Origin: an uncultured Brevibacillus sp. | Lineage (GTDB): Bacteria > Bacillota > Bacilli > Brevibacillales > Brevibacillaceae | Assembly (NCBI GenBank): GCA_946402065.1 | Contig: CAMIVR010000007.1 | Location: 1-64,000, forward strand | Direction of reading: 5' to 3' | DNA length: 64,000 bases | In this document: one piece after another, positions 36,542 through 64,000 of the stretch | Layout: each line of letters opens with the position of its first letter | Position numbering within the stretch: the first letter of the stretch is position 1 | Made by a program: the position numbers and the translations under genes | Notes under the pieces: generated by a model | What the model was told of the DNA's origin: nothing | The model's input: only the letters and a program-made list of their open reading frames with translations | The model's database searches: none

Positions 36542-37279
36542 ATGAAAATACCGGCGATTCACCCGCTTCGGCTCGTCGCGATCGTGCTGATTGCCATGAT
36601 TGTCGCCTATGGTTCGTACATGTATTGGAAGCCACAGACATTTGCTTATGCCAAGCTGCGCGATGGCGTCGTTTTGGAGGGGGGAGCTGCGCTGAAGGCA
36701 GAGTACGTCGAGCGGGCATCTCTGGCCACTGGCGGGCTTTTGTCAGGGGAGCGCTCTCCAATTCCCGGGTTAATTCCGTACAGCCAAATCGCAGCGTACA
36801 TCAATATGCCTGTCTCAAGACGATTGAGTGGCGGTGTGCCCTTGCTCAGTGCCGATCTGATGGGAAAGGAGAGCGAAGGGATGAGCAGTGTGCTGGGTCA
36901 GGGGATGACAGGAATGAGCATACCGGTGGACAACATCGTCGGCGTGACCCCGTACCTGACGATTGGGGATCGCGTTCATCTGTACACCTCTTTTGAGGAC
37001 GATGCAGGGGCACATACGGGCTTGCTGCTGCGGGAAATGCCTGTGATTGCGCTGCAAAGAGAGCAGGAAGCGGATCTCCCCAGGCTGGTAGCGGTCACGA
37101 TTGAACTGACGATGGATGAGGCAGTGTTGCTGACACATGCCCTTCACTACGGAAAAATCCACTTGGGCAAGGCTGCGACAACTGATCAGAAAGGACCGGG
37201 GATCGGCGATGCGGCCTTTGCAAAAGCACTGATGAATACGAAAAAACGATGGAGTGATAGTGGGGATGAGCAAAGATGA
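36542..37279 (+). CDS. Cluster A: CpaB/RcpC-like SAF-domain pilus assembly protein
   Basis: N-terminal TM, AYAKLRDGVVLEGGAALKAEYVERAS, GMTGMSIPVDNIVGVTPYLTIGDRVHLY. ATG 36542 with GAGAGGGGAG. Confidence 0.8.
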   Translation: MKIPAIHPLRLVAIVLIAMIVAYGSYMYWKPQTFAYAKLRDGVVLEGGAALKAEYVERASLATGGLLSGERSPIPGLIPYSQIAAYINMPVSRRLSGGVPLLSADLMGKESEGMSSVLGQGMTGMSIPVDNIVGVTPYLTIGDRVHLYTSFEDDAGAHTGLLLREMPVIALQREQEADLPRLVAVTIELTMDEAVLLTHALHYGKIHLGKAATTDQKGPGIGDAAFAKALMNTKKRWSDSGDEQR

Positions 37280-38655
37280 CAGGAAATGCTAAGCGGGTTC
37301 TACTGATCGACGATGACGTACTGGCCGTCACCGAGCTAAGACAGAAGCTGCTGTCCAGTCAGCAGATACACATATGCGGAGAGGTTTCACGGGTGGAGGA
37401 CCTCTGGCAAGTCATCCACGGTTCACAGCCTGACGTGATCGTCGTAGGGAGTTTACAAGGAATGGAGATCGGCGTTTTGTGCCAGCAAATCCGTTTTTAC
37501 TGTCCGCATGTAACCTTTATTGCCGCGTGCTCGGCGAGAGAGATGCACTGGGAGCCGTTTTTGCGCAATTTGGGCATTTGGATCATTGCCAAACCGGTCC
37601 TTCCGTCGCAGTTGGAGATGCTTTGTGCACAAATTGCACCTGCGAATTATCTGGCGATGACAGGGGCGTCCTTCCCGCCACCGGAAATCCCGGCAATCGC
37701 TGAACGCCAGGAACCGCCATACGCACCGAAGCCCAACAGCTCGCAATACCTGATAACGGTATACGGGCCAAAAGGCGGTGTGGGGAAAACCTTTCTATCG
37801 CGCGAATTGGCCATTTACTTTGCGCTCGGGAAAAAGGAGGGTCGGCCGCTAAAAGTGCTTGCCGTCGACTTTAATCTCGATTTGGGCACGTTTGCCACGT
37901 CGCTTAATTTACCGCGGACGCCGAACCTGTTTACGTGGGTACAGGCGATCGACGAGCAGCTGATGACCGTCATTGAACGGGAAGGCAAACAGGCCGGCTC
38001 GCTCAGTCATGGCGAGTGGCAGGAGTACAGCAGCGCACTGCGATTTGCTCCCGAAGACGTCAAGCGCTACATTGTCACGCATGAACAATCCGGGTTGCAC
38101 GTGCTGACCTCACCGCGCGAAATCAGGCAGAGCTTTGAGATAAAAGATTACCATCTGTACGTCATGCTGGAGACGTTAAAGCTGAGTGACTATGACGTGA
38201 TCCTGATCGATACGGCTCCCGATACGTCAGATGCAACCATCCAGGCGCTGTTTTTTGCCCACAAAGTGGTCATGGTCGGCAATCCGGTAGTAGATGCAAT
38301 TGAAAATATCCAGCGCATGTTAAAGCTGCTGCGGGAAGCAGAGTACCCAGAGGAGCGCATCCAGATTTGCATCAACCGACTGCAACGCAAAGAAATGTTT
38401 ACTGTGGAAGAAATGCGCGCTTATTTTCAGCTTCACCCGAGTAAAACCGTCCATACGGTGCCAGATGACAGTGAAGTGAAGCGCTCGATCAATTCGGGTG
38501 TCCCACTGATGCTGCATCCAGGGAAAATCGCTGCCAAGACTGCGATTGAATCACTTGCCAATGCCCTGATCCCGCTTGCCGTCGGACAAGAAACTCACGC
38601 AGACAAGCAAAAAGGCAAGTCGCGACAGTCGCTGTTTCAGTGGTTGAGAAAATAG
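37276..38655 (+). CDS. Cluster A: TadZ/CpaE-like ParA ATPase with N-terminal receiver-like domain
   Basis: RVLLIDDDVLAVTELRQKLL; intact deviant Walker A YGPKGGVGKTFLSRELA. Confidence 0.88.
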   Translation: MTGNAKRVLLIDDDVLAVTELRQKLLSSQQIHICGEVSRVEDLWQVIHGSQPDVIVVGSLQGMEIGVLCQQIRFYCPHVTFIAACSAREMHWEPFLRNLGIWIIAKPVLPSQLEMLCAQIAPANYLAMTGASFPPPEIPAIAERQEPPYAPKPNSSQYLITVYGPKGGVGKTFLSRELAIYFALGKKEGRPLKVLAVDFNLDLGTFATSLNLPRTPNLFTWVQAIDEQLMTVIEREGKQAGSLSHGEWQEYSSALRFAPEDVKRYIVTHEQSGLHVLTSPREIRQSFEIKDYHLYVMLETLKLSDYDVILIDTAPDTSDATIQALFFAHKVVMVGNPVVDAIENIQRMLKLLREAEYPEERIQICINRLQRKEMFTVEEMRAYFQLHPSKTVHTVPDDSEVKRSINSGVPLMLHPGKIAAKTAIESLANALIPLAVGQETHADKQKGKSRQSLFQWLRK

Positions 38656-38659
38656 AAGG

Positions 38660-40165
38660 GTGGAGATGGGAGTGTTTAACCGAAATCGATTGCTCGGACT
38701 GGAGCAACCGCCTGCGTCCATGCTGGAGGACCTGCGAAATGCGGGTAGACAGACACTGCGGGCGAAGCAAATGATTGGCACCAGCGATACGGAAAACGTC
38801 CGGTCGTTTCTCGACCAGGAGCAAATTGCTTTGGCGGAAATTGAAGCGAATGTAAAAATGCAGATCGTCGAAAAGTACGGGAAAAGGCTGTGGGAGGACA
38901 AGGACAACAGCGTGTTTCTCGAGGAATTGACACGGGATATACGGCTTCTCCTGGAAATGAAGGCGCCGATCAAAAACAACCACCTGGAGCAAGTCGTTCA
39001 AAAGCTGCTTCACGAGCTGGTGGGATGGGGGCCATTGGATCAATTGCTAGAGGACCCGGACATTACAGAGATTCTGTTTCATCGCTACGACAAGCTGGTC
39101 GTGGAACGAAAAAGCCTAGGTCGGCTGGAGGAATATCCGACCAAAGTGTTTCGCGATGAAGACGAGCTGCTGCGCTTAATTGAGCAAATTGCCGCTTCCA
39201 TGGGCCGAGAGTTCAATGAAACGAAAGCCGAGCTGAACACGCAGCTGCCGGATGGCTCGCGGATTGCCGCTACGCATCGGTCGATTTCGCCCGACGGCCA
39301 TATGCTGACGATTCGGAAGCATCGCGATTTGCTAACGCGAACAGAGTATTTGCAATACGGCTCGATATGTGAACCAGTTTTGCAATTTTTGCAGTGGGCC
39401 GTCGGGCTCTCTCGGGCATCCGGAATTGTCAGTGGCGGTACAGGATCGGGTAAAACGCATCTGCTTAATTTAATCTCCACGTTCATACCGGAAAATCTGA
39501 GCGTGATTACGATTGAAGACGTGCTGGAGATGAAGTTTCAGCACCCGTTTGTCCGACGGTTTCTGGCCAAACCGGCCAACCATGAGGGAAAGGGCGGCTA
39601 TTCCATTCGCGACTGTGTACGTCTTTCGTTGCGCAAGCGCCCAGATGTGATCATTGTTGGGGAAACCCGCGGCGGAGAGATTATCGATATTCTTTGGGCG
39701 ATGAATACCGACCACCCCGGAAGCTGGAGCACTGCACATGCAAACTCACCGCGTGCTTTGATTGACTCGACGCTGCCGATTTTATTCGGCAAGGCCGATG
39801 AAAGCTACAGCAGCTCGGAGCGGAATTTGATGATCGGCTCGGCGATTCAGCTCATCGTACAAGTGAAGCGCTTTGAAGAGGATGGCAGCCGGAAGGTTGT
39901 CGCCATTACCGAAGTAATTGGCACAGGGGAGTCACATGAGGAGCGAATCAAACGGGTTTGCAACGTCAGGCAGGTCATACCCAATCGCGTCTACCTGCAG
40001 GATATTTACACATATGAACCAACCGGAATAGTAAATGGGCGGATTGTAGGGCAGTACAGATGGACCGGATACAAGCCGGAACGCATGGTCCGCAAATGGT
40101 TGGCAAAAGGGGTGCAGCAGGAGGAAATCGATCGGGTATTTTTTACGACTCCAATTGTAATGTAA
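38660..40165 (+). CDS. Cluster A: TadA/CpaF secretion ATPase
   Basis: SGGTGSGKTHLLNLIS, VGETRGGEIIDILWAMNTDHPGSWSTAHANSPRALI. Confidence 0.95.
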   Translation: MEMGVFNRNRLLGLEQPPASMLEDLRNAGRQTLRAKQMIGTSDTENVRSFLDQEQIALAEIEANVKMQIVEKYGKRLWEDKDNSVFLEELTRDIRLLLEMKAPIKNNHLEQVVQKLLHELVGWGPLDQLLEDPDITEILFHRYDKLVVERKSLGRLEEYPTKVFRDEDELLRLIEQIAASMGREFNETKAELNTQLPDGSRIAATHRSISPDGHMLTIRKHRDLLTRTEYLQYGSICEPVLQFLQWAVGLSRASGIVSGGTGSGKTHLLNLISTFIPENLSVITIEDVLEMKFQHPFVRRFLAKPANHEGKGGYSIRDCVRLSLRKRPDVIIVGETRGGEIIDILWAMNTDHPGSWSTAHANSPRALIDSTLPILFGKADESYSSSERNLMIGSAIQLIVQVKRFEEDGSRKVVAITEVIGTGESHEERIKRVCNVRQVIPNRVYLQDIYTYEPTGIVNGRIVGQYRWTGYKPERMVRKWLAKGVQQEEIDRVFFTTPIVM

Positions 40166-40178
40166 GGGGGGGAGCGAG

Positions 40179-41087
40179 GTGAATGATTCACTTTTGCCAT
40201 CTTTTGTTTCCATGCTGCTCGGTATTTGCCTGATTGTTCTGCTACTGCCCGACAGGCTGTTGCATTTGCGCAGGGAACATCTCGAGCACGTGGTGACGAA
40301 GCAAATCGTACAGGGACGATTGACGTGGTCGGACAAGCTGCAGCAGCGCCTGGATAAACATCAGACCGGATTTGTCGTCAGCCAGTATCTTTTGCTTACG
40401 GGGTGTTTTGGCGGGGCTGCCTACATGGTGAGTCAAGCCGTCCTGCAGATTTGGTGGCTTGCGTTGCCTACAGTGCTTACTGGTGTGATCTGCAGCGAGC
40501 GGTTAATCAATCTCCGCAGCGAGAAAAGAAAGCAGCGCTTTGAAGAGGGCAATATCAGGGCAATGCGAATTATGGCCAGTTCGTTGCGGACATCCCCTTC
40601 GTATCTTCACGCGTTTGAACAAGTGGCTGCCAGTCCATTTGTCCACAAGTCGATTGCTGCAGAGTATAGCCGCGTCGTAGAATTGCTGCGGGGCCAAGTC
40701 CCTCTCGAGCGGGCGATGAATTATTTTTACCAACGAACCGGTTCAGATGATATCGCCTATCTCGCTACGATTGTTCAAGTCCAGCGCGAACTGGGCGGAG
40801 ACATGGCGAAGACGCTCGATCAGGCTGCATCGGCCATGTTGCGACGAAAGCAGCTTACCCGCAAGCAGAGGGCTGCCCTGTCCCAAATTCTCGCCCAAGT
40901 CAATCTGATGACGGCCATGCCGTTTCTGTTTGCCATTGCGCTCTACGCAAACAATCCCCATCACTTTGATCCCCTGCTGGAATCACTCGGTGGACGAGTG
41001 GCAATCCTTGGCGCTTTTTTTTCTGTTCTGGCTGGCGGGGAACTGATTCGCTACATCGCTTTGAAGCAGATGCGCAGAGGAGGGTGA
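40179..41087 (+). CDS. Cluster A: TadB-like type II secretion F platform protein
   Basis: GSDDIAYLATIVQVQRELGGDMAKTLDQAASAML plus TM segments. Confidence 0.88.
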   Translation: MNDSLLPSFVSMLLGICLIVLLLPDRLLHLRREHLEHVVTKQIVQGRLTWSDKLQQRLDKHQTGFVVSQYLLLTGCFGGAAYMVSQAVLQIWWLALPTVLTGVICSERLINLRSEKRKQRFEEGNIRAMRIMASSLRTSPSYLHAFEQVAASPFVHKSIAAEYSRVVELLRGQVPLERAMNYFYQRTGSDDIAYLATIVQVQRELGGDMAKTLDQAASAMLRRKQLTRKQRAALSQILAQVNLMTAMPFLFAIALYANNPHHFDPLLESLGGRVAILGAFFSVLAGGELIRYIALKQMRRGG

Positions 41088-41088
41088 C

Positions 41089-42003
41089 ATGGAGGTTATC
41101 GCTTCGATTCTCACCGCTGTGGCAATTTTATTGTATTTACTTCCGAGCAGCTTTGTCGCAAAGGGAACAATGTCCCACGGGATGCTGTTCGACCGGATTG
41201 AAGTGGAACAGAAAACGCTCTTCCAGATGACGTTTTCCCGGGCGAAACGAGGTCTGCCGGGGCTTGCCTACCTGCAGAAAAACAAAAAGGCAGCAGAAAA
41301 GCTGGCGAGAATGCTCGGCGTAGAACGGGAAAAAGTCTCCGTCAGTCTGCAGCGTCTGCGCTGGACTGTCAGCATCGAGGAAGTATTGTTGGCAAAGGTG
41401 GTCGGGGCTGGTTTTGTCTGCCTGAGTCTCATCTATGTTCTCATTTTGATGAGAACAGGCCGCTCATTATCGACGTTCCAACTCATTCCGGTAGTAGCCG
41501 CAATCCTGATCTTTTTGCTTCCGACGTACTTGATTGAGCGCGCGGATAAACAAGCCAAAGAGGAGATTAGAATCCAGATTCCGATTTTTTTTGGCATCGT
41601 TCAATCATTGGTTGAAGCAGGAATGCCTATTCATGCTGCCGTACGCGCTACGGCTAGACGGTATCAGACAAGGCTGGGGAGAGAGATCGCCTTGCTTGAG
41701 GTGGATGAGAAACGCTTCGGGAACTGGCGCAAGGCTTTGGAGGAGCTGGCCTATCGCTGGGACGTTGATGCATTTGTGTCGATTGTAATGGAGATCAACG
41801 AAGCCTTGACCAAAGGCGTAAGCATTGCGCCGATGCTGGCGGTTCAGGTGGAAGAGCAAATAAAGCAGCAGGAGGATGAAGCGGCCAGTCAGACCAATCG
41901 CTTGCAGGTTCGGCTGATACCACTGCTGGTTGTGTTCATGGGCGTGCCCTTGATGTTTTTGGTGATGGGGCCGGCATTTCTCGGCATCGGGCAAAATTTA
42001 TAG
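41089..42003 (+). CDS. Cluster A: TadC-like platform protein
   Basis: VDAFVSIVMEINEALTKGVSIAPMLAVQVEEQIKQQ plus TM segments. Confidence 0.88.
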   Translation: MEVIASILTAVAILLYLLPSSFVAKGTMSHGMLFDRIEVEQKTLFQMTFSRAKRGLPGLAYLQKNKKAAEKLARMLGVEREKVSVSLQRLRWTVSIEEVLLAKVVGAGFVCLSLIYVLILMRTGRSLSTFQLIPVVAAILIFLLPTYLIERADKQAKEEIRIQIPIFFGIVQSLVEAGMPIHAAVRATARRYQTRLGREIALLEVDEKRFGNWRKALEELAYRWDVDAFVSIVMEINEALTKGVSIAPMLAVQVEEQIKQQEDEAASQTNRLQVRLIPLLVVFMGVPLMFLVMGPAFLGIGQNL

Positions 42004-42069
42004 CAGAATATTTTGCGTGGGCCTCTGTCTTTTGGCAATGTAAAAGTATCAAACAAAGGAGGGGTTACC

Positions 42070-42246
42070 ATGGAACAAGTTTTGTCGTATGCACGTCGGT
42101 TTGTCAAGGAAGAGGACGCGGTAACGATTGTCGAAATGGTCATTATCGTGGCAGTTGTACTGATTGCTGTCATTCCTGCGTTGGTCAGTTTAGGGGAAAC
42201 GGAGAATAGCAAGCTCGAGCAGTTAAAAGACGGATTAGGCAAGTGA
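42070..42246 (+). CDS. Cluster A: Flp-like small pilin
   Basis: 58 aa, KEEDAVTIVEMVIIVAVVLIAVIPALVSLGE: hydrophobic helix with Glu five residues after a plausible cleavage site. Confidence 0.75.
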   Translation: MEQVLSYARRFVKEEDAVTIVEMVIIVAVVLIAVIPALVSLGETENSKLEQLKDGLGK

Positions 42247-42734
42247 GCCAATATGCCGTTTTCAGTTTGTTATGTGCAGCGGCATGGTCTGATTGGAAGT
42301 GCAGAAAAGTAGCGAATAGATTGTTATTCCCGGCAATGCTGCTCGGACTGTTTTACCAATGGACCATCGGACAAGGATGGCAAGCCATAACCGGACTTGT
42401 GTGCGGGTTTGCCATCACGTTTGTCCCTGTCTTGTTGCGAGGGATGGGCATGGGCGATCAAAAGCTGTTGATGGCTGTTGGTGCCTGGACGAGCTTTACT
42501 GAAGTGTACCAATTGTTTTTGTTATCGGTTGCAGCGAGTGTCGTGGTCGTATGTTCTTCACCGGTACGTATAGCGTTGCTGCTGCAAAACCTGCGATTAT
42601 TGCTGGTCGGCTGGAAGGGACATCGAGAGCTTTGGTTTCCCAGTCTGTCAAAATCCGCTTTGACAATTCCTTATGCAGTCTACGTGCTTGCCGGATTTGT
42701 GGCGATGCGTGTGGGAGAACAGCTATGGCGTTGA
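42243..42734 (+). CDS. Cluster A: TadV/CpaA-type prepilin peptidase (A24)
   Basis: AAAWSDWKCRKVANRL and RGMGMGDQKLLMAVGAW (GxGD-type catalytic motif). Confidence 0.88.
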   Translation: MSQYAVFSLLCAAAWSDWKCRKVANRLLFPAMLLGLFYQWTIGQGWQAITGLVCGFAITFVPVLLRGMGMGDQKLLMAVGAWTSFTEVYQLFLLSVAASVVVVCSSPVRIALLLQNLRLLLVGWKGHRELWFPSLSKSALTIPYAVYVLAGFVAMRVGEQLWR

Positions 42735-43129
42735 AGCGATTGGTAAAAGAGGAAAAGGGCAGCCAGCTCGTGGAGTTTATTCTCGTCTTCCCTTTCATTT
42801 GGATTCTGCTCATGTTCTGTATGGATCAATTTACAATGATGTACAACAAGCAAAAAGCTTTGGCGGCAGCGTACGAAGCGGGCAGAATTGCCGCGGTACA
42901 GCCAAATTACGGATTAGCCAAATACCACGCGAAGCAGCGGGGAGGCAAAGAACTGGAACAGGCCATGGGGGTAACAGAGAGCGATGTGCTCATTCGCCTG
43001 GAGAAACGATGGGGTAAAGGGGAGCACTTGGAAGCAATTGCTACGCTATCATTTACCCTGCCAGCTACAGGCGAGCAGATGACGTTGAAAGAATCGTATT
43101 TCATGATGATTGAAAATTCCGAGCAGTGA
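42725..43129 (+). CDS. Cluster A: TadE-like pseudopilin
   Basis: VKEEKGSQLVEFILVFPFIWILLMFCMDQF, classical G^xxxxEF site. ATG 42725. Confidence 0.85.
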   Translation: MALKRLVKEEKGSQLVEFILVFPFIWILLMFCMDQFTMMYNKQKALAAAYEAGRIAAVQPNYGLAKYHAKQRGGKELEQAMGVTESDVLIRLEKRWGKGEHLEAIATLSFTLPATGEQMTLKESYFMMIENSEQ

Positions 43130-43631
43130 AGGAGGAGGGCTGGTTTTTGTTAACCGCTTGAAGGAAGAGCAAGGTACGATCCTGCTGCAAACGCTTTTTA
43201 TCATGATCTGCCTGTTCGGTTTTCTCGGATTGCTGCTATTTATGGAGCAGGCGTCGCTGATGAAAATGCAAGTCCAGCAAACAGCAGACGTCATAACGAA
43301 AGGCGCGCGTGCTGCAGGTTCTGCAGAATATACCGATTCCATGGGAACCACGCATAAACTGCTCGTAGCGACCGACAGGGAAGCGGCACAGCGTAAGTTA
43401 AACATAGTTCGCGGGGCAAGAGAAGAAGCGGATATTCTCTATTCGCTGAACAAAAAAACGCTGCAAACTTCGGCAGAGAGCGTATCGGTTGTGCACCAAA
43501 AGGGAGAACAGCGTTCGCTTTACGATCAAGGAATCTATCATCTTGCGCTGACCGTGGAGAAACGGGCAGCGCTCGTCTGGGATTCGTTTTTAATGACGAT
43601 CCGTCGAACCTCGCAGTCGGGAGTCTATTAA
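43110..43631 (+). CDS. Cluster A: TadF-like membrane protein (start uncertain)
   Basis: LKEEQGTILLQTLFIMICLFGFLGLLLF followed by a periplasmic-type domain. Confidence 0.65.
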   Translation: MKIPSSEGGGLVFVNRLKEEQGTILLQTLFIMICLFGFLGLLLFMEQASLMKMQVQQTADVITKGARAAGSAEYTDSMGTTHKLLVATDREAAQRKLNIVRGAREEADILYSLNKKTLQTSAESVSVVHQKGEQRSLYDQGIYHLALTVEKRAALVWDSFLMTIRRTSQSGVY

Positions 43632-43728
43632 TTTCCGGCGTCGAGCAGGTACTGGCCGAAATTATTTTTGTCCCAAATCGACATGGTAGGGTAGGAATAT
43701 ACCAGTTGAGGGACAGGAGTGGAGCCAC

Positions 43729-44349
43729 ATGCCTTCTCAAATTATCGAACGATATAAACGGATTCTCAAAGGTGAGCAGAAGCGATTTTCACCATATGAA
43801 TTTGAAGATATTGCTTACCGGAAGAAAAAGATTCAGCTCGTCCTGCGATATGCTATCGAGCAAGTAAAGCAGTGGTCACCTGAGCAAGCGAGAAGATCAT
43901 TAAATGAAAAAGATGTACGGGAGTTGAAGCTGCATCTCGTCAAAGAATTTGTCGAACCGCCAATTGAAGCGAAAGCGACTGATGTTTACTACCTTGTCGA
44001 TTATGCTTATCCGTATCTGCCGAGGCCAACTGAGTACGAAAAAGTGCTCTGGGTCTATCGGGAAGTACTAGAAGGGAAACGCAAGCACTTTCCACCCCAT
44101 TATTTTCTCAGTGCCAAGGGGGAGGAACGAGCGAAAATCTGCTTTGAATATTTATGGAAGGAAATCTTGCAGCAAAACAGCATTCAAAGAATTCCCGAAA
44201 TATTCAAAAAGAACGATGAAGCATATGATCTGTTGCGTAAATATAAGCTAAAAATTATCGTAGACACGTTGTATTTTTCGCCATTCGACATGGCTACGGA
44301 GATGTACCCGGAACTGGCAGATCCCAGCCTGTGGTCCGATGCAGAGTGA
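43729..44349 (+). CDS. DUF4046-like repeat protein
   Basis: Two internal repeats: RYKRILKGEQKRFSPYEFED... and VYREVLEGKRKHFPPHYFLS.... Confidence 0.6.
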   Translation: MPSQIIERYKRILKGEQKRFSPYEFEDIAYRKKKIQLVLRYAIEQVKQWSPEQARRSLNEKDVRELKLHLVKEFVEPPIEAKATDVYYLVDYAYPYLPRPTEYEKVLWVYREVLEGKRKHFPPHYFLSAKGEERAKICFEYLWKEILQQNSIQRIPEIFKKNDEAYDLLRKYKLKIIVDTLYFSPFDMATEMYPELADPSLWSDAE

Positions 44350-44359
44350 CAAGGAAGAT

Positions 44360-44461
44360 AAAATCGCAAAAGGAAAAAAATTTGCGTAGGCCTCTGTCTT
44401 TTTTTACAGTTAAGTCAGTTTCATAGGCTTATAAGCAAATGAAACGGCCGTTACTTAACTG
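44360..44461 (+). promoter_or_regulatory. Structured leader with shared element and long hairpin
   Basis: CGCAAA...TTTGCG, then GTAGGCCTCTGTCTTTTTTT, then CAGTTAAG(44407-44414)..GTTTCAT(44418-44424)..ATGAAAC(44439-44445)..CTTAACTG(44454-44461). Confidence 0.5.
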
Positions 44462-44483: not shown

Positions 44484-44765
44484 ATGGCAACAGTAGGGAC
44501 TCACCAAGAACAGTCCACAGGTGTGGAAGTGCTTTTGGGGCAGAAGGTTAGTTACCAGAAGCACAAACCAGGCGCCAATCTCTCAGTGGAGAGATTGGAC
44601 CGAGAGGAGGTTATCCAAATCGATTCTGTCAATCGCTTTGGAAACCGAATCGTAGTAAATGACGGTGCCATTGTAATGGAAGATGTTCCAGCCGTCATGA
44701 TGCGCGGAGGAAGAGTAGCCTTCCTGCTGCCGACTGGAGAAGAACTCTATCTCACGATGGAGTAA
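44484..44765 (+). CDS. Hypothetical protein, 93 aa
   Basis: AAAGGAGGAG ribosome-binding site then MATVGTHQEQSTGVEVLLGQKVSYQKHKPGANLSVERL... Confidence 0.6.
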   Translation: MATVGTHQEQSTGVEVLLGQKVSYQKHKPGANLSVERLDREEVIQIDSVNRFGNRIVVNDGAIVMEDVPAVMMRGGRVAFLLPTGEELYLTME

Positions 44766-44920: not shown

Positions 44921-45703
44921 ATGTTTGTTCGCAACTCATTTGAATTGGTTAGTCGATGCTATGAAAATGCCCAGCGGCTGCTGGACGAAGAAAGTTTAAA
45001 GGAAGCGTTTATACAATACGTCTTTGGAGAGTATCAGCAGGAAATCTTGCAGCATTACGATCAGGAAGTATTTTACGAACATCTGAACAGCATACAGCTT
45101 GCAAATTGCCGGAAAGATTTCGATATAGCGGTAGAACGCTGGTACAACCTTCATTATGGCAGTGTTCTGTCGGAAGGAATCTACCATGATGATCTGTTCT
45201 CTCTAGTAAAGGAGGTAATAACCACGTACAACACAACGTCTCGAGACCATCTGATCAGCAGCTTTACAGGATTTCTGACGTCGCCAAAAGGGCTCATGGC
45301 CAGGTGGATGCAAGAGACGAAGCGATCAGTATCAGCATATTTTCAATACGTAACGAAACTAGGGATTCACAGCTACACAGACATCGAGGCATTAATCGAT
45401 ATCTGGCTGATCGAGAATCCGGCAACCTTTGATAAAACCCAGCAAGAGTATTACGCCAAACCATCTCGAAGAGGGAGACCGAACAATATCGAATTGACAA
45501 GATTAATGGAACAGGCACACGAAGTAAAGCCAGTTCTGGCCCCTGAGGATAAAGAGAGAATCCGAAAAATTTACTACTACCATCGAAAAACCCTTTCCTC
45601 CATTGCCATGCTCGAAAAATTTCGCAAGTACGTGTTGATGAAAGCAAATCCGCTAAAAGCCAAAAAGCTCCCTTCTGCGTCCGACTCCATACAAGTAGGC
45701 TGA
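44921..45703 (+). CDS. Cluster B: hypothetical protein, 260 aa, first gene of the operon
   Basis: AAAAAAAGGGAGGATATGTAAATG start region; no family recognised. Confidence 0.7.
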   Translation: MFVRNSFELVSRCYENAQRLLDEESLKEAFIQYVFGEYQQEILQHYDQEVFYEHLNSIQLANCRKDFDIAVERWYNLHYGSVLSEGIYHDDLFSLVKEVITTYNTTSRDHLISSFTGFLTSPKGLMARWMQETKRSVSAYFQYVTKLGIHSYTDIEALIDIWLIENPATFDKTQQEYYAKPSRRGRPNNIELTRLMEQAHEVKPVLAPEDKERIRKIYYYHRKTLSSIAMLEKFRKYVLMKANPLKAKKLPSASDSIQVG

Positions 45704-45707
45704 ATAC

Positions 45708-46577
45708 ATGTTCCAGCACCTTCAGAAGTTTGTTACTACCTTCCGCGAACTAGAGAAAAAAGAACCGTTACGATCCCAAGAGGAAGAAGAACAGTGGAAG
45801 CAGCTCAAAGAAAAATTATCTGCTGCGGAAGTTCATGCGGTCGTTGAGCATCAGCAGTATATGAAATCGATCGCTGTCGCTAGTTTATACCCACGTGTAG
45901 GAGCGAGTTTCATAGCTAGCAATTTTGCTTTTTACGAAGCGGCACGATCGATACGGACAACCCTATGCGAGAATCCAATCGAGCAATCATACTTTTACTT
46001 TGCACTCGACTGTGAACGGCGGAAGCCCGTTTCAAGAAACAATGAAAAAATTATGTGGCTGATGAACCAAAGCTTGCAAATAAAGGTCACTCCACCTTAT
46101 GAAAGTCAAGTTTACTCACAGGCGGAAGCAATGAACTGGTTTTTCACAAATCAAAAACATTGCAGCTTCTTTATACTTGATTTCTCATCGCATTGGAGGG
46201 GAGAACTTGCATCGTGGTTGTTCGAAATGGTCGACCAGATTTGGTTTGTGATCGATCCGGATTTTCCGCGACTGTCACAAACGATTTTTGCGGAAGAAGC
46301 CCCGGAGAACTGGAAAAAGAATCTCCACAAGATCTCAATCATCGCCAACAAATGGAACGAGGATGTGGCTGCCCGAGGTGTCATAAAGAGAATCGAAGGT
46401 ACTCTTTCACAGTGGGATGAGCAAAATAAGCTTAAAGTAGGGGCTTCAGTTCCGCGTATTGACGCCAATAAGCTAAGCAGGGCGCAATTGGCAGCACGTA
46501 TCTTTCTGGAGATGTATCCTGACGAAGGTGAGTTTTTGGATCAATTGTCTCACTTGGAAAAAGGAAGGGTTTTATGA
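45708..46577 (+). CDS. Cluster B: degenerate TadZ/MinD-like protein
   Basis: IAVASLYPRVGASFIASNFAFYEA corresponds in layout to a ParA P-loop but lacks the lysine. Confidence 0.6.
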   Translation: MFQHLQKFVTTFRELEKKEPLRSQEEEEQWKQLKEKLSAAEVHAVVEHQQYMKSIAVASLYPRVGASFIASNFAFYEAARSIRTTLCENPIEQSYFYFALDCERRKPVSRNNEKIMWLMNQSLQIKVTPPYESQVYSQAEAMNWFFTNQKHCSFFILDFSSHWRGELASWLFEMVDQIWFVIDPDFPRLSQTIFAEEAPENWKKNLHKISIIANKWNEDVAARGVIKRIEGTLSQWDEQNKLKVGASVPRIDANKLSRAQLAARIFLEMYPDEGEFLDQLSHLEKGRVL

Positions 46578-47350
46578 AAAAACAGACGCTGCTTGTCATT
46601 GGGACTATCTCGTTGATATTGGCGGGGATTTGCTTCTACTCGGCTACGAAATATTTAGACGATCTGGCGCAAGAGCGATTGTATGCGCCTGTAGTGAAAG
46701 TTGCAGATGGTAAGGAACTTTCGCCTTTCCAACCAATCACACGAGATGATGTCGTCGTCATACAAGAGAAAAAAGATGCGATGCTGCCTGGTTCAATTGC
46801 TTCGTTAGATGAGGTGCTTGGTAAACGCAGCATTCAGACGATTTTTTCCGGGGAACAGGTACTAGCGCAAAAGCTGACAGACGGCTATCTCTTGCCGGAA
46901 ACCGGGCAAGCAAGATATGAATTTCCCCTTTCCCTGATGATGCCGGTTACAGAGGTGCGGAGGGGCGACGACGTGAAAGTGTGGGTAAAGTATAAAAACA
47001 GCCATGAGCTTGCTACACTTCCTGCGCCAGCACACTTTACAAAAAGTAACGATGCGGCTGATTTATTGTTTGAAAGCCAGTTGGCTACGGTAAAAGACAG
47101 CAGCGGGATTGAGATTTATACGTTAAAACCAAGCATACTGCCTCAAGCAGATCAGGTTGAAAACCCGTTTTTCCATGCATCAAAAGCTCAAAATCTGACC
47201 GATACGGAACGACGTGTACGCGATTATCGGGCACAACCGTCCGCTCTGCCAGCGTTCGTGGGCTTTAATTTAACAGACCAGCAGTTTTTGATTTTAACTG
47301 AGGCAATCAATTACGGCACGATTCAAATTGGACATTATTTTAGTCGATAG
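46574..47350 (+). CDS. Cluster B: CpaB-like SAF-domain protein
   Basis: TM then YAPVVKVADGKELSPFQPITRDDVVVIQEKKDAMLPGSIASLDEVLGKRSIQTIFSGEQVLAQKLTDG. Confidence 0.75.
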   Translation: MKKQTLLVIGTISLILAGICFYSATKYLDDLAQERLYAPVVKVADGKELSPFQPITRDDVVVIQEKKDAMLPGSIASLDEVLGKRSIQTIFSGEQVLAQKLTDGYLLPETGQARYEFPLSLMMPVTEVRRGDDVKVWVKYKNSHELATLPAPAHFTKSNDAADLLFESQLATVKDSSGIEIYTLKPSILPQADQVENPFFHASKAQNLTDTERRVRDYRAQPSALPAFVGFNLTDQQFLILTEAINYGTIQIGHYFSR

Positions 47351-47480
47351 GAATTTATAAAAATTCCTATCGACATAAGTGGTCGGCTATACGAACGTCC
47401 TGTGGCATCGCCGACCCCTCGCACATCCTGATCATCGCAACTATGTCTCCAACCAAGACTTGGCGTAGCCAATGTGTCTA
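47343..47480 (+). promoter_or_regulatory. Three consecutive hairpins in intra-operon gap
   Basis: GTCGATAGGAATTT-ATAA-AAATTCCTATCGAC (47343-47374); GGTCGGC...GCCGACC (47381-47416); TTGGC-GTA-GCCAA with flanking AGAC/GTCT (about 47457-47480). Confidence 0.6.
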
Positions 47481-47503
47481 ACAGTAGAGGAGGGAAGAAT
47501 CCT

Positions 47504-48637
47504 GTGAAAGCTTTGATTTGCTACCCCATGAAGTCTTTGGTAGGCGCTTTTATGCCTGAAAGATGTGATGCTCTGACAGTAGAAAAAGAAACCGAGCTTT
47601 CCCAAATGACCACCATCTATCAGCCGGATGTCGCCGTGCTTTTTTCGGAGTATTTTTCCAGTCAAGTGTGGGAGTGGCTGCCTCAATCCTTGTCAATGTT
47701 TTCTGAACACGTAGTGAAAATTATCATACCGCTGCACCGTGATGAACGGTTAGTTAAAAAAATTGTGAGTGAGTCACACACAATCAATACATACGTGCTC
47801 TCGGCAAGCCTTACTTATGTTGAGATAAAGAAGCAGCTGGAGGTAATTCTGGGGTTGGGATCGTCTCATCCAGAGACGACGAACAGCAGTGAGCAAGCAG
47901 GGAGCGGGAAAGTATTCAATCTGTTGAGTTACGGTTCCGCTGGTGTTACCACCTTTTGCATCAATTACCCAGTATTGCTTGCCAAAAGCAGCAAGCAAAA
48001 ACAAATTGCGGTTATCGACATGAATACGGTTAAGCCTGATCTCAGCAGATTTTTTGGCTTGCATGAGCACCAGCTATCCCTGTTTCGGCCCGACCTTTTA
48101 GACTTGAGGACCGCTGAGAAAAGAAATTGGAAAATACCCTTCAAGCAGAGCAAAGCAGTGAAAAACCTGTTTTATTCTAGCGGTACGAGTAAATGGAAGA
48201 GCTATGAGATTTCTAACCTGGTACATGTTTTGCGAAAAAGCTTTGATTATGTTTATCTCGACTGGGGGTACTGCTTTCCCGAGACGGAGGCTTTGCTGCG
48301 GATCGTAAAAGAGGCCGACTACAATGTTTTTTTTGCTCGGGCAGACCCATTCAGTATTGAGAGCGCACATGAATGGGTGGGCAAATGGAAGGCGCAAGGA
48401 GTGAATCATCAGCTTCTCGTAAGCCATTTTGACCGCGAGGCGATGAGCAAGCACCACATCCGAGAAAGCCTGCACGAGTATGGGATTCTCCCCAGGGTAC
48501 CGGAAAACAGGATTATTCATTCACACCAGCAAAAAAGCGTGCTTGTCGATGAGCTGTTTCCGCCAAAACAATATTTGCAAAGCTTGCTCGAGATGGTCGA
48601 CAGTGAGAAGAGCATAAAAGGGGTCACCCTATGTTAA
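47504..48637 (+). CDS. Cluster B: second degenerate CpaE/TadZ-like protein
   Basis: FNLLSYGSAGVTTFCINYPVLLAKSSKQKQIAVIDMNTVKPDLSRFFGL: ParA-like layout with GSAGVTT in place of GGVGKTT. Confidence 0.7.
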   Translation: MKALICYPMKSLVGAFMPERCDALTVEKETELSQMTTIYQPDVAVLFSEYFSSQVWEWLPQSLSMFSEHVVKIIIPLHRDERLVKKIVSESHTINTYVLSASLTYVEIKKQLEVILGLGSSHPETTNSSEQAGSGKVFNLLSYGSAGVTTFCINYPVLLAKSSKQKQIAVIDMNTVKPDLSRFFGLHEHQLSLFRPDLLDLRTAEKRNWKIPFKQSKAVKNLFYSSGTSKWKSYEISNLVHVLRKSFDYVYLDWGYCFPETEALLRIVKEADYNVFFARADPFSIESAHEWVGKWKAQGVNHQLLVSHFDREAMSKHHIRESLHEYGILPRVPENRIIHSHQQKSVLVDELFPPKQYLQSLLEMVDSEKSIKGVTLC

Positions 48638-49986
48638 CGCAGGAACTGAAACGAAAATGGACAGCGGCCGAGATCCATACATTTGATGATATTAAGCAAG
48701 CCGCACGGGATTATTTGAATCATTATGGGCAGTCAAGAGAAGCCAAGGTGGAAATGCAAAATATATTAGCCCGGGCAGAGCATGGCGATCGAGTTAGCCA
48801 CAGTCACATTACGCTGCGCTTGCAGCACTATTTTGAAGAAGTGCTGAGAAGGCCTGTGACAGAATCGATTTTTCCACATGTTAATCCGTATGAAGCAATA
48901 ACTTTTTCTACGTATGGTTGGGGCATTTTAGACGTTGTTTTGCACTTGTCGCCATTTGTAGAAGAAGTGCGCATAACTGCAGACAAGCAGGTTGCTTATC
49001 TGGAAGGAGGTGTTAAAAAATTTCTCTCCTACCGGCCAAGCTGGCAAGAAGTTGAAACCTTGCAACAAAAGCTAACGAACGCAGCGGGTTTATTCTTTAA
49101 CGAAAAGAAGCCCAGGCTTAGTGCGTATTTGGAAAGCTTGAAGGCTCGGCTGACCATGTTTACTTTTCCGTATTCGAGGTATCCGACCATCATTGTCAGG
49201 AGATTTACGACCGTTTCCTTCTCATTGGACAGTTTGCGGCTGCAATCGTTGCCGACTTTTGACGAAAAGGTGCAGCTGCTGATTGAGCAACAAGTATACG
49301 GCAGAGCGAATGTACTCGTAATTGGACCGATGGCAGCAGGGAAAACAACCCTAATGATCTGTATGTTGAAGCTGAAGAATCCGCGTACAGAGTATGTAAC
49401 CATTTACGAAAGTGAACATGAAATGCGGTTTGCTGATGTCTGGCCGGGAGAAGTAATTGAATTGCAAAATGTAGAAGAAATCGGCATTGACTTGGCCAGT
49501 AGTTTTAAGGATATTTACCGCTCAACTGCTAATACGGTGCTCATCGGGGAAATCAGAGAGCCTATCGAGGCCTACCACTTTATTAATGCCGGTATACGGG
49601 GTACTGACGCTACCATTGCTGCGCTGCATGAGCGCTTCCCGGACAAGGCGCTTAATGATCTGACCGATTTGGTATATCAATACGGCGGGCGAAGCATTGA
49701 GTTAACCCAGGAGAGAATTAGTCGTGCAGTAAACTTTGTAAACTCGCTGAAATACCGAAATAACGGTCACAGGTTCATTGATGCGATTCAGACGACACAA
49801 TGGAATGCACAGATGAATCGAGTAGAGTCGATTCCCTTGGTTTATCGCAATGTGGCGACTGGCGAATACGAATGGACGGGCAGGCAGCTAGCCGGTGATC
49901 TGGTCGAGTACATGTGCCATATGGGGGAAGCGGATCTTCACGTGTTAAAGGAACTGGGCATTACAGATATAGGGAGGCAGCTATGA
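48631..49986 (+). CDS. Cluster B: CpaF/TadA-like secretion ATPase
   Basis: VLVIGPMAAGKTTLMICMLKL; TVLIGEIREPIEAYHFINAGIRGTDATIAALHERFP. Confidence 0.88.
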   Translation: MLTQELKRKWTAAEIHTFDDIKQAARDYLNHYGQSREAKVEMQNILARAEHGDRVSHSHITLRLQHYFEEVLRRPVTESIFPHVNPYEAITFSTYGWGILDVVLHLSPFVEEVRITADKQVAYLEGGVKKFLSYRPSWQEVETLQQKLTNAAGLFFNEKKPRLSAYLESLKARLTMFTFPYSRYPTIIVRRFTTVSFSLDSLRLQSLPTFDEKVQLLIEQQVYGRANVLVIGPMAAGKTTLMICMLKLKNPRTEYVTIYESEHEMRFADVWPGEVIELQNVEEIGIDLASSFKDIYRSTANTVLIGEIREPIEAYHFINAGIRGTDATIAALHERFPDKALNDLTDLVYQYGGRSIELTQERISRAVNFVNSLKYRNNGHRFIDAIQTTQWNAQMNRVESIPLVYRNVATGEYEWTGRQLAGDLVEYMCHMGEADLHVLKELGITDIGRQL

Positions 49987-50888
49987 AGAACATACTGCTT
50001 ATACCAATGTCATTGTGCCTCATGGTTAGCTTTATGTTTTTGGGGATATTTATCAGTAAGAATTGGTCGGGTCCCAAAGTTTTTTACCCAAAGACACTGT
50101 CAGTATTACGAGAGAAAATGCTGCGGGATAACAACGGAAGGTATGTGTACCAGCGTTTTGAAACATGGTGCAGCGTTGTAGGGGGACAGATGACGCCGGA
50201 GGATTATCTGGTCGTTTCCCTCATTGGGGCAGTGGTAAGCTTCTCGATTGGACTATTAGTCGGAAATATTACTATCTCCATAAGTCTGTTTTTACTATTT
50301 TTACTTTCGCCATCACTCATTTTGTACGCAAGGTATATGATCCGCGTCAATAAAATGATCAAGTCGTTTGGTCATTTTGTTGACCTGTTTGCAAGGCATT
50401 ACAGTACGAGAAAAAACATCGTACTGGCATTTCGCGATATGGCGGGAGAGTGCCCAAAAGAACTGTATGATGAGCTGATCGTCCTGAATAATAAGTTGAC
50501 AGACGGCGGGAACTCTTTGCACGCCATCGAAAGCTTCGCCGACAGATTGAACCACGTCTGGGCGTATGATTTTGCAATGTATATCAGCAGCGGGCTCGAA
50601 GGAGAAACAGAGGACATTCAATCAGCACTGAATCGGTTAACAGGTGAAATGTTTGTCCATCAAGACGAGCGTGAGGAGCGTCAAAGTGAAATCTATAGTA
50701 TATGGATTAGCTTGATCATTGTCATCGTCATATGCATCTTGTTAATTCCGTACAATCAAACGTTGATGAAAGAATCGTATCGTTTGTACTTTTTTACTCC
50801 TGACGGACAAGCGTTGCTTTCGATCGCTGCTACAGTCTGGTTTCTATCTGTATTGGTGGCATTTATTTGGGGAAAGAGGCACATGTAG
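49983..50888 (+). CDS. Cluster B: TadB-like platform protein
   Basis: VDLFARHYSTRKNIVLAFRDMAGECPKELYDELIVLNNKLTDGG with TM segments. ATG 49983 preferred. Confidence 0.78.
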   Translation: MKNILLIPMSLCLMVSFMFLGIFISKNWSGPKVFYPKTLSVLREKMLRDNNGRYVYQRFETWCSVVGGQMTPEDYLVVSLIGAVVSFSIGLLVGNITISISLFLLFLLSPSLILYARYMIRVNKMIKSFGHFVDLFARHYSTRKNIVLAFRDMAGECPKELYDELIVLNNKLTDGGNSLHAIESFADRLNHVWAYDFAMYISSGLEGETEDIQSALNRLTGEMFVHQDEREERQSEIYSIWISLIIVIVICILLIPYNQTLMKESYRLYFFTPDGQALLSIAATVWFLSVLVAFIWGKRHM

Positions 50889-51725
50889 ATGATCACGATC
50901 CGTTATTTACTGTTGCTGTGCGGTTCGCTTTGTCTGTTTGTAACGTTTTTTGCAATTTGTATGAACCTGGCGAGAAAGCTGCCGAAAAAGCTGTTTTTTC
51001 CTAAAACGCTGTGGAAAGCATGGAGCCAGGCCGTTGCGAAAAATGGTGGGGAAGGCTGGGACCGACTGTTAAAAGCAGCGGGACACCCGTTTCATTGGGG
51101 GCAAATCGAGTGGGTATCCTTGCAGTGGCTTATCGGCTTCGTCATTCTCGTCGTCATCTTGATTGTGACGCTGGTCAAGCGCGAAGGGGCATTTCCGTTT
51201 TTCAGCATTATCCTGCTTCCCACGATCGGTTATTTCCTGCCCTATTGCTTCTTAAGGTGGTGGAGCAATTATCGCGAAGAGGTGCTAAGCGTCGACATTG
51301 CCAGATTTATTAACCGCTACGTGAATTTACTTGAAAATCAGGTGCCGGGATATCTTGCGATGGAGAAAGCCGCCCGGCCCACACGGATGTTGAAACATTA
51401 CCTGCCGACGTTGTCCGAATGGAACAAGGACCGACTTGTCGCCTTGGAAACGTTCAAGAACCAGTTGGGCGTGGATGATGCCGTCATTCTCGTTTCCAAT
51501 ATTCGTACGATTGAGCAGCTGCCCAGTGAATTGGTGGGAGTAACCATGCAGCGCTTGGAGTGGACAGTGGACAATCGCCGCATGTTCCGGCATCGCAAAA
51601 AAATAAAATCACTTGGCATCGCCTACAGCATCATTGTTTATCCTACGTTTTACATTGGGTTAATCGTGGCGATGTTCCCGTGGTACAAGCTGCTAAGTGA
51701 GATTTTGGAAAGGTATTTGATGTAG
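50889..51725 (+). CDS. Cluster B: TadC-like platform protein
   Basis: Membrane protein; INRYVNLLENQVPGYLAMEKAAR...LPSELVGVTMQRLEWTVDNRRMF. Confidence 0.72.
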   Translation: MITIRYLLLLCGSLCLFVTFFAICMNLARKLPKKLFFPKTLWKAWSQAVAKNGGEGWDRLLKAAGHPFHWGQIEWVSLQWLIGFVILVVILIVTLVKREGAFPFFSIILLPTIGYFLPYCFLRWWSNYREEVLSVDIARFINRYVNLLENQVPGYLAMEKAARPTRMLKHYLPTLSEWNKDRLVALETFKNQLGVDDAVILVSNIRTIEQLPSELVGVTMQRLEWTVDNRRMFRHRKKIKSLGIAYSIIVYPTFYIGLIVAMFPWYKLLSEILERYLM

Positions 51726-51740
51726 AGAGGATAGTAGCCA

Positions 51741-51896
51741 ATGACTAAGCTTCTCGCAATTTTTGCCTGCTTGATATTTACCCTGGGAATCATCGTTGCC
51801 TGTATGGGTGAGATTAATCAAGCGATTGTCAAGAAGGATGGCCTGCGTGGCAAATCAATGCAGTGGATTGAACAAGCAATTCCAACAAAAAAGTAG
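51741..51896 (+). CDS. Cluster B: small membrane protein, 51 aa
   Basis: MTKLLAIFACLIFTLGIIVACMGEINQAIVKKDGLRGKSMQWIEQAIPTKK; not in supplied ORF list. Confidence 0.6.
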   Translation: MTKLLAIFACLIFTLGIIVACMGEINQAIVKKDGLRGKSMQWIEQAIPTKK

Positions 51897-51910
51897 GGAG
51901 TGGGCATAGC

Positions 51911-52117
51911 ATGTCAAAAATGTTCTTTATCTTTTTAGCGTGTGTCATGGTTCTGGGCATTGGGGTAAGCTCTTACGGAAACGAGCTGTCGCCATCGGCT
52001 ACTACAGCAGCAGAAAAGATCAACAACTCTGTTAGTTCATTAAATTACGATTCGACAAATGAAACGATTACGTTTAAAAATCACTCCGGGAATCCGTATA
52101 CGAATCCCTCTCGCTAA
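51911..52117 (+). CDS. Cluster B: small secreted/anchored protein, 68 aa
   Basis: MSKMFFIFLACVMVLGIGVSSYGNELSPSATTAAEKINNSV; ribosome-binding site GGGAGTGGG. Confidence 0.65.
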   Translation: MSKMFFIFLACVMVLGIGVSSYGNELSPSATTAAEKINNSVSSLNYDSTNETITFKNHSGNPYTNPSR

Positions 52118-52118
52118 A

Positions 52119-52262
52119 ATGAGTCATTTGTTAAGTTTTTTAGTCATTGTCGCATTCACGGGCATTGTATGTTCCTCACTGTGGGGTTCTGGTGTGGAAG
52201 AAAAATTGGCAGGAGGGCAAGAAGCTCGAATGCATAAGGTTACAACGGTTATTTTCCATTAA
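52119..52262 (+). CDS. Cluster B: small single-TM protein, possibly frameshifted
   Basis: MSHLLSFLVIVAFTGIVCSSLWGSGVEEKLAGGQEARMHKVTTVIFH; an adjacent frame continues NGYFPLTLTINVSSGMSSTLSDQLRTCLQQWASSL. Confidence 0.4.
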   Translation: MSHLLSFLVIVAFTGIVCSSLWGSGVEEKLAGGQEARMHKVTTVIFH

Positions 52263-52354
52263 CACTGACCATAAACGTATCATCTGGAATGTCGAGTACT
52301 TTGTCTGACCAATTACGGACATGCCTGCAACAATGGGCTTCCAGTCTTTGATCG

Positions 52355-52377
52355 CCCTACCTTTGCCAAAGGTAGGG
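52355..52377. repeat. Perfect palindrome, 11-bp arms with 1-nt centre
   Basis: CCCTACCTTTG-C-CAAAGGTAGGG. Confidence 0.8.
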
Positions 52378-52414
52378 ATAAGTACCTCTTTCAACGAAAT
52401 CCGGGGAGCAACCG

Positions 52415-52825
52415 ATGATTAAATTAAAAGTTTTTCTGATCTGCCTCAGCGTTCTGTTACTCGTGTTTGCTGCAATTACGTGTATGGAAACCTATTCGCT
52501 GGAGCGAGCCATTGCCAGAGGGTTCTTTTCTGATATGTTGGATGATATGCAGGATATCGGGTACTTGGACAACCATTTGCGTGACTACTACAGAGAGAAG
52601 ATGCAAGCGCTTGGATGGGAAAGTGAAACGGGGGATTTTTTTGCAGGGACAAAGCCCCTGGTACAAGGTGAGCGAGCTCGAAAGGAGCGGAACGAGACCA
52701 TAACGTTCATGCTTTCCGTACGGCCATCACGAGTGTCGCAATGGCTGCACATACTTACAACGGGCGATTCCGTCTTTCGCTTTTCCGGGACGCGCCCTTC
52801 CGAATATTTTGACCAAGGGTGGTAA
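52415..52825 (+). CDS. Cluster B: single-TM pseudopilin-like protein, 136 aa
   Basis: MIKLKVFLICLSVLLLVFAAITCMETYSLERAIARGFFSDML... Confidence 0.65.
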   Translation: MIKLKVFLICLSVLLLVFAAITCMETYSLERAIARGFFSDMLDDMQDIGYLDNHLRDYYREKMQALGWESETGDFFAGTKPLVQGERARKERNETITFMLSVRPSRVSQWLHILTTGDSVFRFSGTRPSEYFDQGW

Positions 52826-52827
52826 GG

Positions 52828-52980
52828 GTGAATAAACTAATCTCTGTCTTGGCACTGACGGTGATTGTTCTCCCACTGACAATTTCCGTTCTCTTTCAGG
52901 GACCGGACAATTTGCTGGACAGTGTCAATCTCTTTTTTAGCAGACTGCTAGAGGAAGCAAACAGGTTTGGGACGGTCTGA
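52828..52980 (+). CDS. Cluster B: 50-aa membrane protein
   Basis: GTG start: MNKLISVLALTVIVLPLTISVLFQGPDNLLDSVNLFFSRLLEEANRFGTV; stop overlaps next ATG. Confidence 0.6.
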   Translation: MNKLISVLALTVIVLPLTISVLFQGPDNLLDSVNLFFSRLLEEANRFGTV

Positions 52981-53399
52981 TGGGACAACTGATCACTACG
53001 ATTGTCTGTGTTCTGGTCCTGTTGATCGTGCCGTTGGGAGTTGTCCAAGTTCATACAGTCATGCAGATGCGCAGCGAATTGCTTGAGCTCAGTTTTTCTA
53101 CTGCCAAATTCATTAGCAATCGCGGTGGCACAAGCAGTGATGAGGTTCTTCTCGCCACAAAAGCGTTTATTCGCGATGAGTTGTCGCATAAAGCGTACCG
53201 GCTGGAAGAAAAGGATGTGCAGCTGGAGCTGGTTCGCACAAAAGCGCATGACAGTACACTCTGGAGCCATGAAGATGTCTTTCAGCTCAAGATGGAAATT
53301 CCTTATCCCGTTCTGACTACGCTGTTTTCCGAATGGCAGCATCCGATTGCCGTCAAGCGGACGGGAAGTATTAATACCATGGATTACGATTTGCGGTAA
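52980..53399 (+). CDS. Cluster B: single-TM pseudopilin-like protein, 139 aa
   Basis: MGQLITTIVCVLVLLIVPLGVVQVHTVMQMRSELLELSFSTAKFISNRGG. Confidence 0.7.
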   Translation: MGQLITTIVCVLVLLIVPLGVVQVHTVMQMRSELLELSFSTAKFISNRGGTSSDEVLLATKAFIRDELSHKAYRLEEKDVQLELVRTKAHDSTLWSHEDVFQLKMEIPYPVLTTLFSEWQHPIAVKRTGSINTMDYDLR

Positions 53400-53404
53400 G
53401 GAGG

Positions 53405-54009
53405 GGACAGATACGGGTGTCAATCTGCTAACAATCTCGACAGCGCTGTTCTTTCTCTTCATGGGACTGCTCGTTTTCGATGCTGATTTAACGATGCAGA
53501 AAAAACAAGAGGTCAAAGCTTTACTGGAGCTGGCTAATCATGAGGCCACCTGGGCCGTTGACCAGGCGATGAAAACAGAAGGCATCATTGAATTGACCGA
53601 GTCAGAAGCGATTAGCCGCTTCGCGCAAAGAATGGCTGACAACGGCGGATATCGGCAAGAAAACAACGCTTTTATCCCGGGAAAATCGAGTGTCACGACT
53701 GATCCGCTTGCGTTCCTTCATTATTACATTGATTTTCAGCAATGGCGCAAAGATACTCAACTGTCCCTGCGCTTTACAGGGGAGAAGCTGCTGCTTGATC
53801 AAGCCGCTGTCGGCAGTGTCATTCATCCTGCTGGCGGAGAACTAAAGATCACCGTAACGACTGAAACGGGTGAGCGGTTGACGCTTGCGCCAAAGCGATT
53901 GATCGGACCGTCACTCGTCGCAGTCGCATATGTGCACGATCGGCCCTTGACGCCATTGTTGACCGGCCATGCGTTCCCGGTCGTCAGCGTAGAAGAGCTC
54001 AAATGGTAA
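53405..54009 (+). CDS. Cluster B: TadF-like single-TM protein, start codon unclear
   Basis: GVNLLTISTALFFLFMGLLVFDADLTMQKKQEVKALLELANHEATWAVDQAM; strong AAGGAGGGG but no ATG/GTG/TTG in frame immediately after it. Confidence 0.6.
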
Positions 54010-63719: not shown

Positions 63720-64000
63720 ATGAATGCGAGTTACTCCTCTTTTCAATCTTCACCCCGACGCTGGCAACATATTGAGACTGCGTTAGGCATCGTCGTTCCC
63801 CGTTCGCTTAAATCTGACACATCTGCGCTGCTTTTCCTCGAAGGGGTTGCTGCTACACCTCTCATTGAAAAAGATGAAGAACTGGAGCTGTTGATTCGCT
63901 ATCAGCGAGACGGTGATCTGGAGGCTCGTGAACGGCTCGTACGCGCCTATTTGCGCTATGTGGTCAACACGGCACTGCGTCACTTGAAGAAGGGAATGCC
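63720..64000 (+). CDS. Sigma-70-family RNA polymerase sigma factor, N-terminal part (runs off window)
   Basis: Open frame MNASYSSFQSSPRRWQHIETALG...LIEKDEELELLIRYQRDGDLEARERLVRAYLRYVVNTALRHLKKGM; region 1.2/2-like. Absent from supplied ORF list because it has no stop. Confidence 0.7.
   Translation, partial: MNASYSSFQSSPRRWQHIETALGIVVPRSLKSDTSALLFLEGVAATPLIEKDEELELLIRYQRDGDLEARERLVRAYLRYVVNTALRHLKKGM

Follow-up and report, generated by a model that had tools for sequence, protein, structure and literature searches.

A window of 64,000 nucleotides (nt) from an uncultured Brevibacillus sp. (contig CAMIVR010000007.1, positions 1 to 64,000) contains a locus for a Tad/Flp pilus, in which two copies of a conserved 22-nt word precede a gene for a Flp-like pilin (flp) and a gene for a protein of 93 amino acids. 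Analysis of this word suggests that it belongs to a late-competence promoter class of the Brevibacillaceae, which would place DNA-uptake genes and the Tad pilus under common control and would be served by a sigma factor encoded at the tad locus; a probability of about 0.78 is assigned to this reading as a whole. Taken by itself, the existence of a family-wide promoter class that unites late-competence genes with the Flp operon is very probable. Such a class bears on the control of DNA uptake in Bacilli without ComK, and a promoter common to flp, comEA, comFA, dprA and comM across a whole family argues, at the level of regulation, for a Tad competence pilus in Bacillota. The analysis furthermore names one sigma factor as candidate switch. 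Brevibacillus species serve as protein-production hosts, for which an inducible transformation switch, if this reading is true, would be of practical use.

The conserved word and its surroundings

The copy upstream of flp is TTTGCGTGGGCCTCTGTCTTTT (positions 42012-42033; all features described here lie on the forward strand), and the one upstream of the gene for the 93-amino-acid protein is TTTGCGTAGGCCTCTGTCTTTT (44381-44402). The word is genuine, and its occurrence greatly exceeds chance. The original observation, made by eye, that the window holds no other copy was borne out by a search allowing up to three mismatches, and 100 dinucleotide shuffles of the window contained no copy. Also within the source genome (5.84 Mb, 268 contigs), three copies were found at up to three mismatches rather than many scattered ones; the third is located at C10:13906, before comEA (SLBB and helix-hairpin-helix domains).

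With the first T of TTTGC counted as position 1, the conserved positions are 1-5 (TTTGC), 12-22 (CTCTGTCTTTT), 25 (Y), 26 (A), 30 (T), and 37 (A). The first 21 copies, picked on positions 1-22 and on the downstream gene, all had A26 and T30. Positions 25-30 (YANNNT) are read as a putative sigma70-type -10 element with A-11 and T-7, TTGCNN as the probable -35 region at a spacer of 17 base pairs (bp), and the A at position 37 as the predicted transcription start. TTTGC lies one base more distant in about one third of the copies, the two spacings between TTTGC and the CTCTGTCTTTT block (N6 and N7) corresponding to spacers of 17 and 18 bp, whereas the block and the -10 remain separated by exactly 2 bp. 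Most copies combine an A-11/T-7 -10 with TTGC at 17 or 18 bp, in agreement with the TTG-type -35 at 16-18 bp that is typical of sigma70-type promoters; the copies before sbcD lack TTTGC, but have TACAAT as -10. Promoter recognition through a conserved block within the spacer would be unusual.

The predicted promoter of flp and the genes following it accordingly extends over 42012-42048, with TTTGC at 42012-42016, CTCTGTCTTTT at 42023-42033, a -10 of CAATGT at 42036-42041 and the predicted start A at 42048. The one of the 93-amino-acid gene extends over 44381-44417 (TTTGC 44381-44385, CTCTGTCTTTT 44392-44402, -10 TACAGT 44405-44410, predicted start A 44417). The element as first described was therefore genuine, but drawn too short. 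Since the Shine-Dalgarno sequences of comM and dprA begin at or beside the predicted start A, the true start should not be located much further downstream.

A different interpretation, raised at the outset, takes the word for an RNA element acting in cis, with a hairpin formed by GCAAA and TTTGC at its upstream end. Both window copies are indeed flanked by the inverted repeats originally reported; however, these are no property of the element, as a GCAAA in the preceding 60 nt is present in only 16 of 113 copies compared to 8 expected from shuffles, and the upstream hairpin of the comEA copies resembles the terminator of the preceding gene. Neither a conserved hairpin nor a match to a known cis-regulatory RNA family was found, the Rfam search yielding chance-level matches only. 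In addition, the comEA copies are situated directly behind apparent terminators and are consequently not within RNA read from upstream, and the -10 with its invariant A and T as well as the start A follow at fixed spacing. All these observations argue for a promoter that acts at the level of DNA and leave hardly any probability for the RNA element.

Target genes and distribution

Searches of the source genome at lower stringency added dprA (PF02481, 1e-81), comM (Mg_chelatase) and PDDEXK_2 (Rpn-type) nucleases, and comFA on contig C80 was found by a covariance-model search, giving about eight strong copies that precede flp/tad, the 93-amino-acid gene, comEA, comFA, dprA, comM, and Rpn-type nucleases. 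After 80 further match regions had been fetched, the first downstream gene was assigned for 114 copies, 107 of which fall into 12 recurrent gene classes: the 93-amino-acid gene (25), flp (16), comEA, comFA and genes for secreted proteins with a PPC domain (11 each), sbcD (8), comM and a coiled-coil gene (6 each), maf-radC (4 with DUF4321, 1 without), dprA and rnhA (3 each), and Rpn (2), with 7 others; as the sample was picked by match strength, these counts are not per-genome frequencies. DprA, ComM, ComEA, and the DEAD-box ComFA-like protein were confirmed by Pfam, and the names SbcD, RNase H, Maf, RadC, and DUF4321 were assigned by eye from the sequence. The recurrent classes are mostly late-competence and recombination genes, and the common promoter element on unlinked genes of uptake and recombination (comEA, comFA, dprA, comM, maf-radC) is what is expected of a late-competence regulon. 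The PPC-domain secreted proteins with a competence-type promoter are found at L044, L045, L070, L124, and L188, at least one of them having a lipase-like region.

A pattern search in 60 relatives detected copies before the orthologues of flp and of the 93-amino-acid gene, before comEA, a ComFA-like helicase and ComM/YifB, along with some chance matches. The word is thus kept at orthologous positions even though the proteins encoded downstream are unrelated, which supports the common regulator of the two loci that had been proposed initially, with a regulon far wider than the island. As a looser pattern at two mismatches suffered from excess background, a sequence-only covariance model built from 30 copies was used instead. 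It identified copies in all 42 Brevibacillaceae genomes (E<=0.1) and, at the strict cut-off of E<=1e-4, in 35 of 38 family genomes vs. none of 363 other Bacilli, a set in which the presence of Paenibacillus was left unchecked. A long exact pattern run against 85,462 species genomes matched 28 stretches, of which 11 belong to Brevibacillus; the remainder, spread across unrelated phyla, is read as chance matches in AT-rich genomes, although not inspected one by one.

The target genes resemble those of the ComK regulon of Bacillus, with which comEA, comFA, and dprA are shared; presumably, maf-radC is a ComK target as well. In contrast to Bacillus, ComK (PF06338) was detected in none of the 42 family genomes, while the B. 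subtilis control was positive, and the K-box of the ComK regulon, AAAA-N5-TTTT (PMC3536758), was not enriched (1 of 113 promoters vs. 0.8 in shuffles, for a single exact AT-box). Membership in the ComK regulon was rejected on these grounds. The streptococcal SigX/ComX regulon (combox/cin-box) is similar in having a dedicated sigma factor, for which a candidate exists here, and a common promoter word before comEA, dprA, and other late-competence genes. Its cin-box is TACGAATA, and this word was likewise not enriched at the -10 (4 of 113 at up to one mismatch vs. 2.8 in shuffles), so that membership in this regulon was discarded, too. The Brevibacillaceae differ from the streptococci in the word itself, in the sigmaA-like group-2 type of the candidate sigma factor, and in the Flp/Tad type of the target pilus.

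With regard to the uptake machinery, ComEC is present in 42 of 42 family genomes, and ComGA was found in none of them above the curated cut-off. Tad-type ATPases are general, and a PilB/PilT-type cluster is found in eight family genomes; the corresponding ATPase pair lies at G000:C20:38580-40546 and occurs only in these eight. Based on the co-regulation described above, the pilus is likely to serve DNA uptake. Flp/Tad-dependent transformation has been shown experimentally in Micrococcus luteus (PMC4322843), in which the Flp pilus is tied to DNA uptake and which also possesses two tad clusters; in contrast to this actinobacterium, the link in the Brevibacillaceae, members of the Bacillota, is suggested by co-regulation. 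For Paenibacillus polymyxa, comGB and comGC were not found and Flp genes were suggested to form the competence pilus (PMC8370563); that study describes no shared promoter, and the model has no hit in the 363 Bacilli from outside the family, whether or not these include Paenibacillus. The literature searched contained no paper on competence regulation in Brevibacillus or on a tad-linked sigma factor.

Candidate trans-acting factors

Taken together, RNA polymerase would read TTTGC (-35 region TTGCNN, spacer of 17 or 18 bp) and YANNNT (-10), with specificity conferred by the CTCTGTCTTTT block at about -25 to -15. The promoter would drive comEA, comFA, dprA, comM, maf-radC, and sbcD or rnhA as well as the Rpn-type nucleases, the 93-amino-acid gene and the flp part of the Tad locus, and Tad pili would take the place of the ComG pilus, which is missing. 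The most likely trans-acting factor would be a group-2-type sigma factor whose gene lies at the end of the tad locus, possibly assisted by a helper that reads the spacer block.

Of the 48 sigma70 region-2 matches in the source genome, many are of the extracytoplasmic function (ECF) type. The candidate gene begins at 63720, occupies the window up to 64000 and continues to contig position 64661, encoding 314 amino acids. Its product is a paralogue of sigmaA (39.7% identity to the sigmaA of the same genome over 300 amino acids) that has sigmaA-like regions 2-4 and misses region 1.1, as do group-2 sigma70 factors; it differs from other members of that group in scoring below the NCBIfam cut-offs of the RpoD and RpoS models and in being encoded at a pilus locus. 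Region 4.2 has the sigmaA core TRERIRQIEA, and WW and QAITRAI are retained in region 2.4, with changes nearby; both regions would fit recognition of TTG and TANNNT. In several relatives the gene is located directly 3′ of the tad genes, and in the source genome peptide-transporter and other genes lie in between. It was present in 18 of 20 downstream stretches and, once further flanks had been fetched, in both genomes that had seemed to miss it.

Two family genomes, G003 and G013, are devoid of DUF4046 and of motif matches at flp and the 93-amino-acid gene, apparently through loss of the tad island, while motif promoters are retained at comFA, comM, comEA or rnhA. It is therefore unlikely that the factor is an island gene, and the tad-island genes were dismissed as general trans-acting factor. 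The candidate sigma gene, however, was found in tad-less G013, as predicted, in a syntenic position before hslO and cysK. Overall, it occurs in 22 of 22 genomes examined (the source genome included, G003 left out), with nearly invariant recognition regions. On balance, this sigma factor is probably the cognate one of the promoter class. Whether a separate Gram-positive competence system exists, in which the tad-linked sigma, possibly with a spacer-reading partner, replaces ComK/ComX and directs DNA uptake by the Tad pilus via a three-part promoter with the spacer block as main specificity determinant, can be answered in the affirmative only tentatively, its probability being slightly below even.

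Housekeeping sigmaA might also transcribe the same regulon, aided by an unlinked activator bound to the CTCTGTCTTTT spacer block; such a protein would be equivalent to ComK in function, but differ from it in its site. The -35/-10 shape and the spacer of 17-18 bp are those of sigmaA promoters, the sbcD copies without TTTGC have the better -10, and spacer reading is rare among sigma factors. Nevertheless, no candidate activator was found, and the conservation of the tad-linked sigma in all genomes examined, tad-less G013 included, speaks for the latter, which makes sigmaA with an activator rather unlikely.

An ECF sigma gene with a likely anti-sigma gene is located directly behind comEC (G000:C10:7048-8717, L265), and the ECF sigma gene takes the same place in 20 of 20 family genomes. 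Despite this conserved position it is very improbable that it reads the promoter, as its own upstream region contains a different, conserved promoter of ECF type (TGCAACYTTT...CGTCTG), which led to its rejection, and as neither the -10 YANNNT nor the 17-18 bp spacing of the motif is of ECF type.

The upstream region of the tad-linked sigma gene (L285:9283) contains AATATTCTGTNAA as a conserved sequence; most genomes also have GGAAT-N12-GTCGAAAT there, which resembles a sigmaH promoter and a Spo0A box. Such sigmaH/Spo0A-type control would also suit a general pilus or stationary-phase promoter without any link to DNA uptake, as would the frequent role of Tad pili in adhesion and the several targets without known role in uptake. 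This is considered improbable, since comEA, comFA, dprA, and comM recur as targets across different genera and the com-gene motif promoters persist in the two genomes without a tad island.

Several points weigh against the late-competence class with its tad-linked sigma factor. The start sites are predicted from conservation, and the sigma factor is tied to the promoters by synteny and retention only, which prove no pairing. Moreover, reading of a block at -25 to -15 is uncommon for a sigma factor and may require an additional protein. For the 93-amino-acid, PPC-lipase, coiled-coil, and Rpn genes, no role in competence has been established, and the literature searched yielded no report of natural transformation in Brevibacillus.

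The Tad locus and the 93-amino-acid protein

The Tad locus of the window consists of two clusters. The flp promoter lies within the first of them, and the promoter of the 93-amino-acid gene is located between the two. The first part of tad operon 1 (36542-42003) encodes CpaB/RcpC, a CpaE/TadZ-like protein, the CpaF ATPase, TadB, and TadC. The first gene behind the flp promoter (42070-42246, 58 amino acids) was assigned to a Flp-like pilin from Pfam and from its position in the locus, the matches to Flp1_like (4.6e-05) and Flp_Fap (7e-04) being both below the curated cut-offs. It is followed by genes for a Peptidase_A24 prepilin peptidase, a TadE-like and a further TadF-like protein (42243-43631), which, judging from their spacing, are likely co-transcribed with flp. 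With the Flp pilin (below the Pfam cut-off), CpaF, TadB/TadC, prepilin peptidase, and TadE, the gene set of a Tad/Flp pilus is present. Next comes a DUF4046 protein of 206 amino acids (43729-44349), which is found in 40 of 42 family genomes and is lost together with the tad island. The second cluster (44921-54009, outer limits set by reading of the open reading frames) includes a CpaF-type ATPase (48631-49986) and a TadB-like protein (49983-50888), among others.

The 93-amino-acid protein (44484-44765; 23 relatives aligned) occurs family-wide and gave no significant match to Pfam, NCBIfam, or PDB folds; its structure was modeled confidently as all-beta (predicted local distance difference test score of 84). 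The predicted start of its transcript lies one base before a near-invariant palindrome of 28 nt, GTTTCANNNGCTTATAAGCNNNTGAAAC (44418-44445), which would cover +2 to +29 of the transcript and may act either as a hairpin that stabilises it or as an operator.
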